A stretch of 35,692 nucleotides of DNA. Source: Solirubrobacteraceae bacterium. Lineage in GTDB: Bacteria; Actinomycetota; Thermoleophilia; Solirubrobacterales; Solirubrobacteraceae. Location: positions 1 through 35,692 of the forward strand of contig JADGIB010000002.1 of NCBI GenBank assembly GCA_019683665.1, in the 5' to 3' direction. Below the pieces are notes generated by a model. The model was not told the DNA's origin. It did not search any database and was given only the letters and a program-made list of their open reading frames with translations. The position numbers were made by a program, and so were the translations under genes. Positions 5,087-29,540 of the stretch are shown here, piece by piece. Position 1 is the first letter of the stretch. The number at the start of each line of letters is the position of its first letter.

Positions 5087-6286
5087 GCGGTGGTCGTGGC
5101 GGTCGCCGCCGTCGTCGCCGGGCGCGCGCTGTGGTCGACGATCGTGCCCGCCGGGCTGCCGCGGCCGGCGGTCGACGTCGACGCGACGTTCGGGGCCGCG
5201 GCGGTCGCCGAGGCCGAGTCGTTCGAGGCGTTCCTGCGCGTCCTCTCGATCGCCGGGATCGTCGCCACCGTCGTCACGCTCGGGCTGTACGCCTGGCGCG
5301 GCGCCCGCTTCGCGCGCGAGTCGGCCGCCGGCCCGGTCGGGACCGGCTTCCTGCTCGGGATGCTCGGGCTGGCGATCCTGTGGCTGGTCGAGCTGCCGTT
5401 CTCGGTCGTCGAGCTGTGGTGGCTGAAGCGCCACGACGTGACCGACGTCGGCTACCTCGAGGCGATCGGGATGCAGGTCGCCGCGCTCGGCGGGACGTTC
5501 CTGGCCATCTGCCTGGCCCTGCTCGTCGCGATGGGCCTGGCGCGGCTGCTGGGCGCCGCGTGGTGGCTGCCGGCGGCCGCGGTGTTCGTCGGGATCATGG
5601 CCGGGCTGACGTTCGCCTCCCCGTACCTCGTGCCCGGCCAGGAGCGCCCGCCGCGGTGGGCCCAGCGCGAGGTCGACCGCCTGGCCCGGGCCGAGGGACT
5701 GGACCGGACGGTGCCGCTGCGCGTCGAGGAGGTGAGCGAGTTCACGAGCGCGCCGAACGCGTACGCGACCGGCCTCGGCTCGTCGCAGCGCGTCGTGCTG
5801 TGGGACACGCTCGCCGACGGGTTCCCGCGCGACCAGGTCCGCGTCGTCCTCGGCCACGAGGTCGCCCACCTCGCCCGCCGCCACCTCCCGAAGTCGATCG
5901 GCTGGTTCGCGGTGACGATCGTGCCGACCGCGCTGGCGATCGCGTTCGTCACCCGCCGCCGCGGCGGGATGGGCGAGGCGGCCGCGGTGCCGGTCGCGCT
6001 CTTCGCGTTCGTCGTCTGCGGCCTGCTGGCGACCCCGCTCGACAACGCCCTCAGCCGCCGCTACGAGGCCGAGGCCGACTGGACGGCGCTGCAGGCCACC
6101 CGCGACCCGCGCGCGATGGAGGGCCTGTTCGTCGGCTTCACCCGCCGCGGCCTGTCGGACCCGGACCCGCCGGGCTGGTGGCACGTCCTCTTCGACAGCC
6201 ACCCGAGCGGGCGCGAGCGGGTGCAGATGGCGCGGGCCTGGGCGCAGCTCCACGGCGGCGCGAGCGGCGATACTCGGGCGCCGTGA
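5084..6286 (+). CDS. M48 family metallopeptidase (start uncertain; frame break with upstream DUF4389)
   Basis: VVLGHEVAHLARRHLPKSIGWF (HExxH), NALSRRYEAEADWTALQ, DSHPSGRERVQMA are typical of M48. Credible sequence appears in frame 2 from about 5060; first in-frame GTG codons 5084/5090/5096. Confidence 0.8.
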   Translation: MAVVVAVAAVVAGRALWSTIVPAGLPRPAVDVDATFGAAAVAEAESFEAFLRVLSIAGIVATVVTLGLYAWRGARFARESAAGPVGTGFLLGMLGLAILWLVELPFSVVELWWLKRHDVTDVGYLEAIGMQVAALGGTFLAICLALLVAMGLARLLGAAWWLPAAAVFVGIMAGLTFASPYLVPGQERPPRWAQREVDRLARAEGLDRTVPLRVEEVSEFTSAPNAYATGLGSSQRVVLWDTLADGFPRDQVRVVLGHEVAHLARRHLPKSIGWFAVTIVPTALAIAFVTRRRGGMGEAAAVPVALFAFVVCGLLATPLDNALSRRYEAEADWTALQATRDPRAMEGLFVGFTRRGLSDPDPPGWWHVLFDSHPSGRERVQMARAWAQLHGGASGDTRAP

Positions 6287-6615
6287 TCACCGTCTACGAG
6301 AAGCGCACCTGCACGACCTGCCGCAGGCTGGCGAAGCTCCTGGAGGAGCGCGGCGTCCCGTTCGAGCGGGTCGAGTACCACGTCGAGGGCCTCACCGAGG
6401 ACCAGATCCGCGACCTGCTGCGCAAGGCCGGCCTGCGGGCCGCCGAGGCGCTGCGGATGCGCGCGGAGGGCGCCCGCGAGCTGCGCGACGCCGACGAGGA
6501 CGCGATCGTCGCCGCGATGGCCCGTCGCCCCGAGCTCCTCCAGCGCCCGATCGTCGTCAACGGCGACCGCGCCGTCCTCGCCCGCCCCGTCGAGCGGGTC
6601 CTCGAGATCCTCTAG
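6283..6615 (+). CDS. ArsC/Spx-family thioredoxin-fold protein (arsenate reductase-like)
   Basis: ITVYEKRTCTTCRRLAKLLEERGVPFERVEYHVEGLT...RPELLQRPIVVNGDRAVLARPVERVLEIL. GTGA overlap with the M48 stop. Confidence 0.88.
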   Translation: MITVYEKRTCTTCRRLAKLLEERGVPFERVEYHVEGLTEDQIRDLLRKAGLRAAEALRMRAEGARELRDADEDAIVAAMARRPELLQRPIVVNGDRAVLARPVERVLEIL

Positions 6616-6703
6616 CGCCCGGCCCCGCCGGCGCGAGTGGCGATCTCGATCCACCCCCTGGATGCGGATCGCCGCTCGTCGCGGGCCCGGCCCACGACGC
6701 AGA

Positions 6704-6729
6704 AGGGCCCGGCGCGAACGCCGGGCCCT
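6704..6729. terminator. Bidirectional hairpin terminator between convergent arsC-like gene and groEL
   Basis: Perfect 11-bp stem AGGGCCCGGCG-CGAA-CGCCGGGCCCT in the 3'-3' intergenic gap; no strong T-tract. Confidence 0.8.
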
Positions 6730-6759
6730 CCGAAAGCGACGTGCAGGCGCCGAAGCGGC

Positions 6760-8382
6760 CTACATCATCCCCGACATGTCGGGCATGTTGCCGCCGCCGG
6801 ACTCCTTCTCCGGGATCTCGGCGACGACCGCCTCGGTCGTGAGGATGTTCTTGGCGATCGAGGCCGCGTTCTGCAGCGCCGAGCGCGTGACCATGGCCGG
6901 GTCGATGACGCCGGCCTTGACGAGGTCGACCATCTCGCCGGTGGCGGCGTTCAGGCCCTCGTTGCCCTTGGCCTTGCGGACGTCGTTGACGACGACCGAG
7001 CCCTCGAGGCCCGCGTTGAACGCGATCTGACGCAGCGGCTCCTCGAGCGAGCGCAGGACGATCTTCGCGCCGGTGCGCTCGTCGTCGTCCTCGAACGCGT
7101 CGAGCGAGACGGAGTCGGCCGCGCGCAGGAGCGCGACGCCGCCGCCCGGCACGATGCCCTCCTCGAGGGCCGCGCGGGTCGCCTGCAGCGCGTCCTCGAC
7201 GCGGTGCTTCTTCTCCTTGACCTCGGTCTCGGTGGCCGCGCCGACCTTGACGACGGCCACGCCGCCCGACAGCTTCGCGAGGCGCTCCTGGAGCTTCTCG
7301 CGATCGAAGTCGGAGTCGGTCGTCTCGATCTCGGACTTGATCTGGTTGATGCGGCCCTTGATCGCGTCGACGTCGCCGGCGCCGTCCACGATCGTCGTCG
7401 TGTCCTTGGCGACGACGACGCGGCGGGCGCGGCCGAGCTGCGAGATCTGGGTGTTCTCGAGCTTGAGGCCGAGATCCTCGGTGATGACCTCGCCGCCCGA
7501 CAGGATGGCGATGTCCTCGAGCATGCGCTTGCGGCGATCGCCGAAGCCCGGCGCCTTGACGGCGACGCCGGTGAACGTGCCGCGCAGCTTGTTGACGACG
7601 AGCGTCGCCAGGGCCTCGCCCTCGACGTCCTCGGCGATGATCAGCAGCGGCTTGCCCGACTGGATGACCTGCTCGAGGATCGGGAGGAGGTCACGGACGG
7701 AGCCGATCTTCTGGTTGGCGATGAGGATGTAGGGCTCCTCCAGGACGGCCTCCATGCGGTCCTGGTCGGTGACCATGTAGGGCGAGATGTAGCCCTTGTC
7801 GAACTGCATGCCCTCGGTGAACTCGAGGTCGAGGCCGAACGTCTGGCCCTCCTCGACGTTCACGACGCCGTCCTTGCCGACCTTCTCGATGGCGTCGGCG
7901 ATGACGTCGCCGATCTCCTCGTCGCCGGCCGAGATCGTCGCGACGCGGGCGATCTGGTCCTTGCCGTTGACCTCGGTCGCCTGCGACTTGATGTTCTCGA
8001 CGATCTGGTCGACGGCCTTCTCGATGCCGCGCTTGAGCGCGAGCGGGTTGGCGCCGGCGGCGACGTTCTTCAGGCCCTCGCGGACGATGGCCTGCGCCAG
8101 GACGGTCGCCGTCGTCGTGCCGTCGCCGGCGACGTCGTTCGTCGCCGTCGCGACCTCGCGCACGAGCTGCGCGCCCTGGTTCTGGAAGACGTCCTCCACC
8201 TCGATCTCACGAGCGATGGTCACGCCGTCGTTCGTGATGGTCGGGGCGCCGAACTTCTTGTCGAGGACGACGTAGCGACCCTTCGGGCCGAGGGTGACCT
8301 TGACCGCATTGGCCACGGCGTCCACGCCCGCCTGGAGCGCGTTGCGCGCCTCGGCGTCGTACTTCAGTTCCTTGTGAGCCAT
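6760..8382 (-). CDS. groL: Chaperonin GroEL (Hsp60)
   Basis: [36 protein letters not shown]...[24 protein letters not shown]...[12 protein letters not shown]; 540 aa. Confidence 0.98.
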
Positions 8383-24747: not shown

Positions 24748-25530
24748 CTACCCGCCGAGCGCGTCGCGCCACGCGACCATCTCGCGCAGGGGGCCGAGGT
24801 CGTAGTCGGGGCCGCTCGCGCTGACGACGAACTGGCGCACGCCCGCCTCCAGGTAGGCGTCGGCGTGCCGCGGCAGCTCGCGGTCGAAGCGGCTGACCGA
24901 GTGCTCGATCTCGCCCGGGTCGCGCCCGATCCGCGCGCAGTGCTCGGCCAGCACCCGCGCCTTGTGGCGGTACGTGTCGAGATCGGCGAAGACGTGCCAG
25001 GCGTCCGCGTGCTCGGCGACGATCCGCAGCGTCACCCGCTCGCCGCCGCCCCCGACGAGGATCGGCATGTCGCGCAGCGGCGGCGGGTTCAGGCGGGCCA
25101 GGCGGTCGCGGATGACCGGCAGGTCGCGCCGCAGCGCCTGCAGCCGGTCGGCCGCCGTCCCGAACGCGTAGCCGTACTCGTCGTAGTCCTTCTGGAACCA
25201 GCCGGCGCCGATCCCGAGCACGACCCGCCCGCCGGAGATGTGGTCGATCGTGCGGTGGGCGTCGGCCAGCAGGTTCGGGTTCCGGTACGAGTTGCACATG
25301 ACGAGCGCGCCGACCTCGGCCCGCTCGGTGCTCGCCGCCAGCGCGGCCAGGCAGGCGAGGCCCTCGAAGTGGCGCCCCTCCGGCTCGCCGCGCAGCGGGA
25401 AGAAGTGGTCCCACGTGTAGATGCAGTCGGCGCCGATCTCCTCGGCCTCCTGCCAGGCGCGGCGCATGCTCGCGAAGTCCGCGTGCTGGGGCTGGACCTG
25501 GATGCCGGCCCGCACCCGCATCGCGCTCAC
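24748..25530 (-). CDS. LLM class F420-dependent oxidoreductase
   Basis: IQVQPQHADFASMRRAWQEAEEIGADCIYTWDHFFP...LADAHRTIDHISGGRVVLGIGAGWFQKDYDEYGY...ILVGGGGERVTLRIVAEHADAWH. GTG at 25530 or ATG at 25521. Confidence 0.92.
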   Translation of the reverse strand: MSAMRVRAGIQVQPQHADFASMRRAWQEAEEIGADCIYTWDHFFPLRGEPEGRHFEGLACLAALAASTERAEVGALVMCNSYRNPNLLADAHRTIDHISGGRVVLGIGAGWFQKDYDEYGYAFGTAADRLQALRRDLPVIRDRLARLNPPPLRDMPILVGGGGERVTLRIVAEHADAWHVFADLDTYRHKARVLAEHCARIGRDPGEIEHSVSRFDRELPRHADAYLEAGVRQFVVSASGPDYDLGPLREMVAWRDALGG

Positions 25531-27575
25531 CGCACTGGGGCCAGGCGCGACACGGCGGCGAGCACCGCCTCGCGCGCGTCCTCGGGCTCGAGGACGACCG
25601 CGTCGCCGGCCTCCTTGAGCACCTCGCGGACGAGGTAGTCGACGCCCTTGAACGGCAGCTCGACGACGATCGCGCCGTCGGCCAGCTCCTCGGCGACGCG
25701 CCGCTCCTCGCGCACCCAGCGCGCCCGCTCCGGGGCGATCCACACGCGCGCGGTCCGCGACGCCTCGACCTCGCCGGTGCGCAGCCAGCCGTCGACCTCG
25801 GCGGCCGGGTCGACCTCGGGGCGCGGCACGTACGTCTCGTCGAGGACGGTCGCGCGCCGGATGCGGTCGAGGCGGAAGTGGCGCACGTCGTCGCGCGACG
25901 GGTCGAAGGCGGCCACGTACCAGCCCTCGCGGCCGTTCGTCAGCGCGTACGGCTCGACGCGGCGGACCGAGAACTCGTCCTCGTTGGCCTTGTAGTAGTC
26001 GAGCTCGAGCATCCGCCGCTGGGCGATCGCGTTCGACACGACCTTCGCGATCTCCGAGTCGTCGCCGCCGGCGCTGGCGATCTGCAGGCCGGCATGGGTG
26101 GGGTCCTCGCCGAGGGCGGCGACGATCTTCTCGCGGGCCGAGGCGAGCGACCCCTCCGGGATGTGGTCGCCGATGAGGTCGATCGCCGCGATCAGCGCTT
26201 TCGCCTCGACCGGCAGCAGCCGGGCCGGGCGGGCGAAGTTGTCCGAGTACGGCTCCGGGTCGACCTCGATCTCGCCGTCCTCGGTCACCTCGGCGTAGAG
26301 GACGTACGAGCCGCCGCCGAAGTTCACGACGTTGAGGACGTTGATGTCCTCGCGCAGCTCGGCCTCGGAGACCTTCAGGCGCTCGAGCACCTCCTCCAGG
26401 CGCAGCCGGCGCCCGGCGCGGCCGGCCTCGATGAGGACCGACGCGAGCGTGACGAGGCGGGCGAAGCGCTCCGGCCGGATCGCCGTCTCGCGCCTGCCGC
26501 CGCCCGAGGGCGCCTCGTCCTCGGACGCGACGGGCCGCCCGGTGGACGGGGCGGTCTCGAACGTGCCCTCGTGGCGCTCGGCCACGCGCGCGGCCCGCTC
26601 GGCCACCTCGGCGGCCAGCTCCGGCGGCCCGAGGACCCGGGCGTGCTCGCCGAGGCCGAGGACCCAGCCCGACAGCAGCCGCGGGTCGGCGTACTCGGTC
26701 TCGAGGACGATCGCGCCCTCGTCGGCCGGGCGCACCGTGCCGAAGCGGCCGAAGTGGCGCTCGACCTGCCACGCGATCCGCTCGGAGATGCGCACCTCGG
26801 CCGTCCCGACCGGGTCGCCGAACTGCCACGGGGCGCGGCGCGCGAACGGCCGCGGGTCGAAGTCGGCCGGGCGCTTGAAGTCGTGCTCGGCCTTCGTCGC
26901 GTAGGCGACCTTGCCGCGCATCCGCGACAGGCGGAAGACGCGCAGCGCCTGGCGCTCGTGCGAGTAGCCGAGGAGGTAGAACTGCCCGCCCTGGTAGAGC
27001 AGGTGGTACGGGTCGACCTTGCGGCGGCCGACCTCGTCGCGGGCCATCGTGTAGTAGTCGAACGTGATCGTCTTCTGGCGGAAGATCGCCGTCTCGACCT
27101 TCGCCAGGCGCTGCGACAGCTCGTGGCCGCCGGCGCTGGCGGTGAGCCCGAGCGCGACCGAGCGCTGGTCGGGCGCCTGCAGCGGCGACGGGCGGCCCCA
27201 GGTGATCTGCTGCAGCGCGAGCCGCAGCGGCTCGGCGTAGGCGAACTCGCCGTCGAGCAGCGACAGCGCGGTCTGCAGGGCGGCCAGCTCCGCGTCGGTG
27301 AACTCGATCGCGGGCAGGTGGAAGTTCTCGGGGCGCAGGGAGTAGTTCTCCTGCTCGGCGACCCCGTCGGCCGGCTTGTCGACGGTGAGCTGGATCCCGA
27401 GCGACTCGAGCTCGGCGCGGTCGGCGTAGAAGCGGCGGGCGAACGCGTCCTCGTTCATCCCGCTGTAGCCCTCCACGTCCCGGCGGATCTCCGTCGCCGT
27501 GACCGGCCGCCGCTCCGCCATCAGGTACGAGATCAACGACAGCTGGCGGATGAGCTTCTCGGTGTCCTTCGCCAT
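25527..27575 (-). CDS. pafBC: Fused double-WYL transcriptional regulator (PafB-PafC type)
   Basis: 682 aa with two wHTH-WYL units: LISYLMAERRPVTATEIRRDV...FRQKTITFDYYTMAR...GGQFYLLGYSHERQALRVFRLSRM, and LVTLASVLIEAGRAGRRLRLEEVLERL...RRMLELDYYKANEDEFSVRRVEPYALTNGREGWYVAAFDPSRDDVRHFRLDRI. Confidence 0.85.
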   Translation of the reverse strand: MAKDTEKLIRQLSLISYLMAERRPVTATEIRRDVEGYSGMNEDAFARRFYADRAELESLGIQLTVDKPADGVAEQENYSLRPENFHLPAIEFTDAELAALQTALSLLDGEFAYAEPLRLALQQITWGRPSPLQAPDQRSVALGLTASAGGHELSQRLAKVETAIFRQKTITFDYYTMARDEVGRRKVDPYHLLYQGGQFYLLGYSHERQALRVFRLSRMRGKVAYATKAEHDFKRPADFDPRPFARRAPWQFGDPVGTAEVRISERIAWQVERHFGRFGTVRPADEGAIVLETEYADPRLLSGWVLGLGEHARVLGPPELAAEVAERAARVAERHEGTFETAPSTGRPVASEDEAPSGGGRRETAIRPERFARLVTLASVLIEAGRAGRRLRLEEVLERLKVSEAELREDINVLNVVNFGGGSYVLYAEVTEDGEIEVDPEPYSDNFARPARLLPVEAKALIAAIDLIGDHIPEGSLASAREKIVAALGEDPTHAGLQIASAGGDDSEIAKVVSNAIAQRRMLELDYYKANEDEFSVRRVEPYALTNGREGWYVAAFDPSRDDVRHFRLDRIRRATVLDETYVPRPEVDPAAEVDGWLRTGEVEASRTARVWIAPERARWVREERRVAEELADGAIVVELPFKGVDYLVREVLKEAGDAVVLEPEDAREAVLAAVSRLAPVR

Positions 27576-27664
27576 GCCCACCGAACGATAGGGCGCGGCG
27601 AGCGGCGGAAGTCATGCCATTTGTTCCCTGTTTGCGGCAATCGCGCAGTACGGTGGCACCCGAG

Positions 27665-28294
27665 ATGACGCGCTTGGCCATCGTCGACGACCACGAGGCG
27701 CTGCGCGACGGGTTGGAGTCGCTGCTGAACGGCAGCGGGCTCGACGTGGTGGGGACCGCCGGGAACGTCGCGGCGGCGATGGACCTCGTCGAGCACGAGC
27801 GCCCCGACGTCGCGCTCGTGGACATCCGCCTGCCCGACGGATCGGGCATCGACCTCGCGCGCATGCTCCTGGCCACCCGGCCGGAGCTGCGGATCGTCCT
27901 CTACACCGGCGAGACCGACGCCGACCTGCTGTCGGAGGGGCTCGACTCCGGCGCGCAGGGCTACGCGCTGAAGGCGGGCTCGACCCGCGAGCTCGTCGAG
28001 GCGATCACCCGCGTCGCCGACGGCGGCACGTACGTCGACCCGCGCCTCGACGGCGTGCTCGCCCGCCAGCGGGAGGCCGCCCGCGTCCCGCGGCTGTCGC
28101 CGCGCGAGCGGGAGGTGCTCCAGCTCATGGCCGAGGGGCAGACCGCCGAGGGCGTCGGCGAGGCGCTCGGCGTCTCGGTCGAGACCGTCCGCACCCACGT
28201 CCGCAACGCGGTGCGCAAGCTCCAGGCGCGCAACCGCGTCCACGCGATCGCGCTCGCGGTCGCGCGCGGCGAGATCGCCGTCGACGACGAGTGA
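27665..28294 (+). CDS. NarL/LuxR-family response regulator
   Basis: Receiver residues present (VDDHEALRDGLESLL, VDIRLPDGSG, YTGE, LKAGS); LuxR HTH LSPREREVLQLMAEGQTAEGVGEALGVSVETVRTHVRNAVRKLQARNR. Confidence 0.95.
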   Translation: MTRLAIVDDHEALRDGLESLLNGSGLDVVGTAGNVAAAMDLVEHERPDVALVDIRLPDGSGIDLARMLLATRPELRIVLYTGETDADLLSEGLDSGAQGYALKAGSTRELVEAITRVADGGTYVDPRLDGVLARQREAARVPRLSPREREVLQLMAEGQTAEGVGEALGVSVETVRTHVRNAVRKLQARNRVHAIALAVARGEIAVDDE

Positions 28295-28488
28295 TGGACC
28301 CCCGCGAGCGCGACCCGGTCGCCGCCCTCGTCCACGACCTGCGCACGCCGCTGGCCGTCGTCTCCGGCTTCGCCGAGCTGCTGCGCGCGAAGGCCGACGC
28401 GCTCACCGACGAGCAGCGCGCCGAGTACGTGGCCCGGATCGCCGAGGGCGCCCGCCAGATGGACGAGATCCTCAGCCGCGCGCGCTGA
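28294..28488 (+). CDS. Stand-alone HisKA (DHp) mini-protein without an ATPase domain
   Basis: 64 aa: MDPRERDPVAALVHDLRTPLAVVSGFAELLRAKADALTDEQRAEYVARIAEGARQMDEILSRAR. H-box HDLRTPL; start overlaps the response-regulator stop. Confidence 0.82.
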   Translation: MDPRERDPVAALVHDLRTPLAVVSGFAELLRAKADALTDEQRAEYVARIAEGARQMDEILSRAR

Positions 28489-28495
28489 GCGCCGG

Positions 28496-29479
28496 TCAGG
28501 CCGCCCGCGCGCCCGCCGGCTCGGTCGCGACGCGGCCGGCCGGGAAGTAGGCGCCGGTGCCCAGCGCCCGGTCGTAGGCGCTCCAGCGCTGCCCGTCGCG
28601 CAGCTCCTTCTCGAGCCGGTCGAACGAGCCGAGCCGCCCGCCGAGGTTGTCGACGAAGTGGACGAGCGTCGCCTCGCGCGTGCAGGGGACGACCGGCGAG
28701 CCGTGCTCGAGCGACCCGTGGTGGCTGAGGATGATGTGGAGCACCGCCTCGGCGCGGTCGGCCGGGAACCCCTCGATCGCCTCGATCGTGCGCCGCACGC
28801 GCGTGTAGCCGAGGACGATCTCGCCCTGCAGGCGGCCCGCGTCGGTCATGTGGATGCGCAGGCCGTCGGTGCGGTAGGCCTCGAGCTTGCCGATGTCGTG
28901 GAGGATCGCGCCGGTCACGGCGACGTCGTGGTCGATCCCCGGGAACGTCGCGCTCATCGCGTGGACGGCCTGGCCGACGGTGAGCGAGTGCTCCAGCAGC
29001 CCGTGGCGGTAGGCCTGGTGGTAGACCTTCGCCGCCGGCGCGTCGCGGAACGCCGGCCACGTCGGCGCCGACGGCCCGACGATCCGGTCCAGCAGCTCGG
29101 CCAGGTACGGGTCGCGGACCGTGCCGATGAGCTCGCGCAGGTCGGCCTCCATCGCCGCCGCCGGGCGCAGCGGCCCGTCGAGCAGGTCGGCCGGGTCGAA
29201 GCTGCCGTCGGCCGGGCGGCGCAGCGCCCGGATCGTGATCTCCGCCCCGTAGCGGGGATGGTCGGAGTAGCGGCCGATGACCCGCACCGGCACCCCGGGG
29301 CGGATGTGGGGCCGCAGCTCGGCGACGCCGTCCCAGATCGTCGCCGCCACCGTGCCCGTGCGGTCGCCGAGCACGAGCTTGAGGAACTCGCGCCCGTCGC
29401 GCTTCTGGCCGACCTCGACCTCGCGGACCAGGAGGACCTGGTCGATCTCGCATCCGTCGGTCAGCTCACGCACGAGCAT
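28496..29479 (-). CDS. OB-fold plus HD-domain protein, YhaM-like 3'-5' exoribonuclease
   Basis: GREFLKLVLGDRTGTVAATIWDGV (OB) and HGLLEHSLTVGQAVHAM...GAILHDIGKLEAYRTD...ILSHHGSLEHGSPVVPCTREATLVHFVDNL (HD). Confidence 0.9.
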   Translation of the reverse strand: MLVRELTDGCEIDQVLLVREVEVGQKRDGREFLKLVLGDRTGTVAATIWDGVAELRPHIRPGVPVRVIGRYSDHPRYGAEITIRALRRPADGSFDPADLLDGPLRPAAAMEADLRELIGTVRDPYLAELLDRIVGPSAPTWPAFRDAPAAKVYHQAYRHGLLEHSLTVGQAVHAMSATFPGIDHDVAVTGAILHDIGKLEAYRTDGLRIHMTDAGRLQGEIVLGYTRVRRTIEAIEGFPADRAEAVLHIILSHHGSLEHGSPVVPCTREATLVHFVDNLGGRLGSFDRLEKELRDGQRWSAYDRALGTGAYFPAGRVATEPAGARAA

Positions 29480-29540
29480 GCCGGCAACGTAGACGTGCGC
29501 GCGGACGAACCTTCGCGATCCGGGGTAGTGTCCTGCGCCC

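Follow-up and report, generated by a model that had tools for sequence, protein, structure and literature searches.

Histidine kinases have been split in the laboratory into a dimerisation and histidine phosphotransfer (DHp) part and a catalytic part; here, a bacterial lineage appears to have retained only the former, encoded by its own gene and tied to a single response regulator. The gene encodes a protein of 64 amino acids (aa), termed the mini-protein, and lies in a 35,692-nucleotide (nt) stretch of DNA from a Solirubrobacteraceae bacterium (GCA_019683665.1, contig JADGIB010000002.1, positions 1 to 35,692; hereafter, the window). Domain A of EnvZ, a 67-aa laboratory construct comprising the DHp domain, reportedly reconstitutes a kinase with the separate catalytic domain, and Zhu et al. 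are said to have found in 2000 that the isolated EnvZ DHp domain is a phosphatase without any catalytic domain. The mini-protein matches domain A in size, HisKA fold and an H-box of the HDLRTPL type, and would, like domain A, act on a regulator without a catalytic domain. However, it is encoded by a natural separate gene with no sensor or catalytic partner nearby, and its regulator is of the NarL rather than the OmpR type.

With Spo0B and ChpT, the mini-protein shares a kinase-derived helical hairpin, a putatively phosphorylatable histidine serving receivers and the lack of ATPase activity. Those two proteins retain a degenerate domain resembling the catalytic one and belong to Pfam families of their own, whereas the mini-protein lacks such a domain and matches plain HisKA. 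Histidine phosphotransfer (HPt) domains of the ArcB and YPD1 type offer a comparable small, stand-alone role in phosphotransfer, but they are monomeric four-helix bundles with another motif, while the mini-protein is a DHp hairpin. In Mycobacterium tuberculosis, the Rv0600c/Rv0601c-TcrA system reportedly has a split kinase, with the DHp and catalytic domains on separate neighbouring proteins. The Rv0600c and Rv0601c kinases are described as cooperating with TcrA (PMC9274095). The mini-protein shows the same separation of domains, but the two halves adjoin in M. tuberculosis and no catalytic half lies near the mini-protein. RetS and GacS are a parallel in using DHp domains as interaction modules; RetS, in contrast, is full-length and lacks such linkage to a regulator. 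We found no description of an equivalent mini-protein in the open-access literature searched, which is part of all literature and leaves subscription papers outside the search.

Domain content and predicted fold of the mini-protein

The mini-open reading frame (mini-ORF; 28294..28488, plus strand) follows the gene of a complete NarL/LuxR-type response regulator of 209 aa (27665..28294, plus strand) with a receiver and a GerE helix-turn-helix domain (Pfam Response_reg 3.6e-24, GerE/LuxR 1.2e-17). Alignment showed that the regulator keeps its acceptor Asp (LVDIRLPDG), N-terminal DD, Thr (LYTG) and Lys (ALKAG), so its phospho-acceptor residues are intact. The sequence at about 28285-28304 is GACGACGAGTGATGGACCCC, in which the regulator TGA ends at 28294 and the mini-ORF ATG begins at the same base, within a GTGATG stop/start overlap (28291..28296, plus strand). 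An alternative start, GTG at 28291, would give 65 aa and a 4-nt GTGA overlap.

HisKA was the sole significant Pfam family in the mini-protein (4.3e-14; 52.8 bits, the cut-off being 26.9), the match covering positions 6-56 of the 66-position profile, and the protein stops after this domain. This bore out the first-pass annotation, which had described a stand-alone HisKA frame overlapping the stop of a NarL-type regulator. All 17 aligned orthologues also matched HisKA (E 0.001 or better). An AlphaFold monomer prediction from the 17-sequence alignment gave a confident helical hairpin (pLDDT 93.4; helices 8-32 and 39-63). The closest PDB structures retrieved by Foldseek were HK853 DHp chains, mostly from HK853-RR468 complexes, at a TM-score of 0.82-0.85 over the query; their E-values (0.04-0.1) are weak because the protein is small. 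Independently, a sequence profile retrieved the DHp domains of HK853, PhoR, RetS/GacS and EnvZ, and the RetS/GacS chains 7n0e and 6dk7 were among the closest solved sequences. The predicted fold is a DHp hairpin.

No match to HPt (PF01627) was found in the Pfam search, and none to SPOB_a or HPTransfase up to E = 1. The features that define a histidine kinase, an HPt protein or Spo0B/ChpT are absent from the mini-protein, although by analogy it may work like HPt proteins or Spo0B/ChpT. An Hpt-like relay, one of the options raised at first, is therefore conceivable as a role but not as a family assignment, as fold and H-box are those of a DHp domain. In family terms the mini-protein is nothing other than a HisKA domain. 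What is unusual is its gene, which encodes a natural, separate DHp co-translated with a regulator.

The catalytic (CA/HATPase_c) domain was absent from the mini-protein and from the stretches around every carrier locus (about 5-6 kb on each side where contigs allowed), while the same profile detected it in 18/18 control kinase loci. A hidden or frameshifted HATPase downstream was likewise rejected: a convergent YhaM-like gene (28496..29482, minus strand) ends 7 nt past the mini-ORF stop, so that a HATPase cannot follow, and the fetched stretches gave no catalytic-domain match. The spacing and the exclusion had been proposed before; the neighbouring gene had been said to begin at this point, whereas it is its 3' end, at 28496, that lies there.

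Conservation, selection and linkage to the regulator

To assess distribution, we searched 146 genomes of the same family with a profile, and an orthologue was found in 26 of them (8 genera), at 57-82 residues. The 25 true copies recovered by the profile scored 77-122 bits, compared to 52 bits or less for ordinary kinases; the 26th, cut by a contig end, was recognised by eye. A search across the order recovered unambiguous relatives from several genera at 45-72% identity, each ending directly after HisKA. Beyond the family, no orthologue was found in the sampled class (299 genomes) or phylum (397), where more divergent copies could be missed; the matches there were long-frame and kinase-like only, at 45-63 bits. 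A short frame in G572 was rejected as an orthologue outside the family, since a catalytic domain follows it.

In 26/26 carriers the mini-ORF lay directly behind the orthologous regulator in the same order. Its start overlapped the regulator stop in 22 and lay within 7 nt of it in the other 4, which supports the translational coupling suggested earlier. Wherever the sequence reached, the regulator was divergent to a WYL/WCX/PafC-HTH gene at each orthologous locus. Genes further downstream varied, with YhaM in many genomes and other genes in genus g15, so the conserved unit is the WYL gene, the regulator and the mini-ORF.

Regulator orthologues (at least 53% identity) were present in 32 genomes of the family, and a mini-ORF without the regulator was never found among the family genomes searched. 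The regulator and WYL gene occurred without the mini-ORF in six genomes (G155, G169, G197, G156, G133 and G127), the absence in G197 resting on 106 nt of sequence only. On the regulator tree, several forks of which are weakly supported, these six fall in about three places and carriers of genus g15 branch outside them; loss is therefore simpler than repeated gain. A comparison of regulator positions with the presence of the mini-protein yielded weak candidates only, the independent losses being too few for interpretation; one example is Ile54, beside the acceptor Asp of the regulator, which was present in 24/24 regulators with the mini-protein and 2/6 without it.

The mini-ORF showed gene-like GC at the three codon positions (0.83/0.47/1.00). 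In close orthologue pairs, fourfold sites differed by about 33-58% (saturation 54%), compared to 3-8% at codon positions 1+2; because the former diverge far more than the latter, the mini-protein sequence is under strong purifying selection. Third positions, at about 95% GC, are close to saturated, which made Nei-Gojobori dN/dS uninformative; the fourfold-site comparison took its place.

These data bear on the reading that the mini-ORF is a non-functional or accidentally translated remnant of a kinase gene. Some three losses that left the regulator intact would fit it, but purifying selection, the coding signature and 26 orthologues of the same size in 8 genera, starting in overlap with or no more than 7 nt from the regulator stop, largely refute it, and we regard it as very improbable. 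A local degenerate fragment, for which full-length kinase orthologues or a lack of conservation would have spoken, was rejected in the same way: the 26 orthologues are HisKA-only and share size and position. What these results establish is a DHp protein that comes without a kinase, is conserved under selection and is genetically linked to a single regulator.

Two anomalies were observed among the regulators: in G201 (L131) the gene is split between frames, and in G150 (L043) the N-terminus does not align. Both are likely sequence errors, as the assemblies are drafts.

Separately, a Candidatus Sulfopaludibacter metagenome-assembled genome (Acidobacteriota) carries a 68-aa HisKA-like ORF, HDLTNQLAVVSGFAEIL (L039:2971-3177), 18 nt behind an NtrC-type regulator. 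It scored 23.6 bits against HisKA (5.5e-5), just under the cut-off of 26.9, and has Asn four residues after the histidine. Judged from sequence, it may be an independent instance in which a regulator has a DHp-only protein next to it.

Active-site residues and possible activities

The H-box (VHDLRTPLAVVSGFAELL in the window) was the best conserved part of the mini-protein. Its histidine was kept in 26/26 copies, the following residue (H+1) was acidic in all of them (Asp in 25, Glu in 1), and the residue at H+4 was Thr in 24, including the window copy, and Ser in the two genomes of genus g53. Among the HisKA kinases examined in one study, CrdS and HK853 included, the H+1 acid is required for kinase but dispensable for phosphatase activity, while Thr/Asn at H+4 is required for phosphatase but dispensable for kinase activity (PMC3510030). 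By sequence, the mini-protein therefore has both the acid of a kinase-competent phospho-acceptor site and the H+4 residue of a phosphatase-competent HisKA DHp, and the retention of both argues that its histidine really is phosphorylated.

We consider it rather likely that the mini-protein acts on the phosphoryl group of the regulator in some way. It probably moves or removes this group, and any phosphorylation that depends on ATP would be provided in trans; both activity and direction are inferred. Our preferred reading, to which we assign a probability of roughly 0.4, is that the mini-protein is a dedicated, phosphotransfer-competent DHp partner of the co-translated regulator, charged in trans. 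Adjacency in 26/26 carriers, the absence of any mini-protein without the regulator, the DHp fold and the intact phosphorylation residues of the regulator led us to it. In this scheme, two copies would assemble into the four-helix bundle typical of DHp domains, and this bundle would dock on the regulator receiver. An unlinked kinase would charge the invariant histidine, either with its catalytic domain acting in trans or by forming a mixed DHp dimer with the mini-protein, and the histidine would then pass the phosphoryl group to the regulator. The uncharged mini-protein could use the same surface to dephosphorylate the regulator through the H+4 Thr.

Several points weigh against this reading. 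No candidate kinase is linked to any carrier locus in the stretches searched. Six genomes, representing about three losses, retain the regulator after loss of the mini-protein, which is therefore not indispensable. Moreover, conservation of the H+1 acid could come from folding or docking and not from phosphorylation.

It is possible, on a more tentative footing, that the mini-protein is a phosphatase or phosphate drain only. It would strip phosphate from the regulator, or take it back onto its histidine, and in doing so set an off-rate that is fixed and stoichiometric; charging of the regulator would fall to an unlinked kinase. Coupled translation suits such a stoichiometric brake, the mini-protein itself would need no trans-kinase, and the isolated EnvZ DHp domain, of similar size, reportedly behaves in this way. 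However, the H+1 acid, which is dispensable for phosphatase activity (PMC3510030), is kept in 26/26 copies, and it is H+4 that varies, with Ser in genus g53; a cognate kinase would also still be required, as acetyl phosphate is a doubtful donor. Because the H+1 acid is kept in all copies, we lean towards a phosphotransfer-competent DHp.

An improbable alternative is a partner that works independently of phosphorylation, as an anti-regulator or dimerisation aid that would attach to the receiver and control DNA binding by means other than histidine chemistry. Protein contacts are a frequent mode of action of orphan regulators (PMC12471899), and overlapping genes often encode physical partners, yet the catalytic H-box is the most conserved part of the protein.

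Candidate kinase partners and phosphodonors

The window genome (G000) encodes five HisKA domains besides the mini-protein. Each of the five is closely followed by a HATPase on the same contig, leaving the mini-protein as the sole exception among the six, and with 14 HisKA_3 domains also present, possible partners exist. The nearest HisKA domains of the genome are only 32-34% identical to the mini-protein over the matched stretch.

Acetate kinase was not found in the window genome, G111 or G101, and the match to phosphotransacetylase (PTA) was only weak and partial; the enzyme was present in the related carriers G060, G005 and G107. Acetyl phosphate as a universal donor is therefore disfavoured, and it is doubtful as a general donor for the regulator, other routes such as phosphoketolase aside; an unlinked kinase is indicated.

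The five other HisKA domains also allow a reading in which the mini-protein modulates another histidine kinase, either pairing with the DHp domain in a full-length kinase to form a mixed bundle or competing with that domain, and thereby dampening or redirecting the kinase, as RetS does with GacS. DHp domains dimerise, and the closest solved sequences include the RetS/GacS chains, but the linkage of the mini-protein is strictly to a single regulator, with no kinase linked at any locus, and its closest HisKA domains in the genome share just 32-34% identity. We regard this reading as unlikely.

The pairing of HisKA with a NarL-type regulator had been called mismatched, an argument that proved weak. 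NarL/FixJ-type regulators with HisKA-type kinases are known, including FixL/FixJ, BvgAS and BarA/UvrY. Furthermore, a distant regulator paralogue in G013 (L135; 45% identity, 5624-6235) adjoins a full-length HisKA+HATPase kinase at about 6549-8045, a pair that is a possible model of the ancestral pairing.

Extending the preferred reading of a DHp partner charged in trans, we tentatively propose a natural minimal two-component system, in which a free-standing DHp, co-translated with the regulator, would be shared in trans by the catalytic domain of one or more unlinked kinases and so serve as a detachable adaptor wiring the regulator into the kinases of the cell. The family suggests that soil actinobacteria run a two-component system without a linked kinase, and it bears on how 'orphan' regulators obtain phosphate. 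The mini-protein offers a natural case in which to test the capabilities of an isolated DHp, be it phosphotransfer, phosphatase activity or docking, and is a potential 64-residue tool for tuning regulators.

Flanking genes and intergenic region

The WYL/WCX/PafC-HTH gene of the window (25527..27575, minus strand) encodes a PafBC-like fusion regulator of 682 aa, identified by Pfam (WYL 2.9e-40, WCX, HTH_PafC) and synteny. On the other side, the YhaM-like gene encodes an exoribonuclease with OB and HD domains (Pfam HD and tRNA_anti-codon; NCBIfam YhaM 3e-33, which is below the curated cut-off). It bounds the locus and is outside the mini-protein/regulator system.

The divergent intergenic region between the WYL gene and the regulator (27576..27664) carries a short palindrome, CCGCTCTTTGCGG, or variants of it in most of the 30 relatives compared, including genomes without the mini-ORF; in the window it is degenerate (about 27620-27640). 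The pattern showed no genome-wide enrichment and thus looks like a putative local operator. Two hexamers also recur in relatives: CGATAG (TATCG on the minus strand) at 27586-27591, immediately preceding the start of the WYL gene, and TACGGT-like hexamers at about 27654-27660, shortly before the regulator start. Their positions near both starts suggest very short or absent leaders on the WYL and regulator messages.
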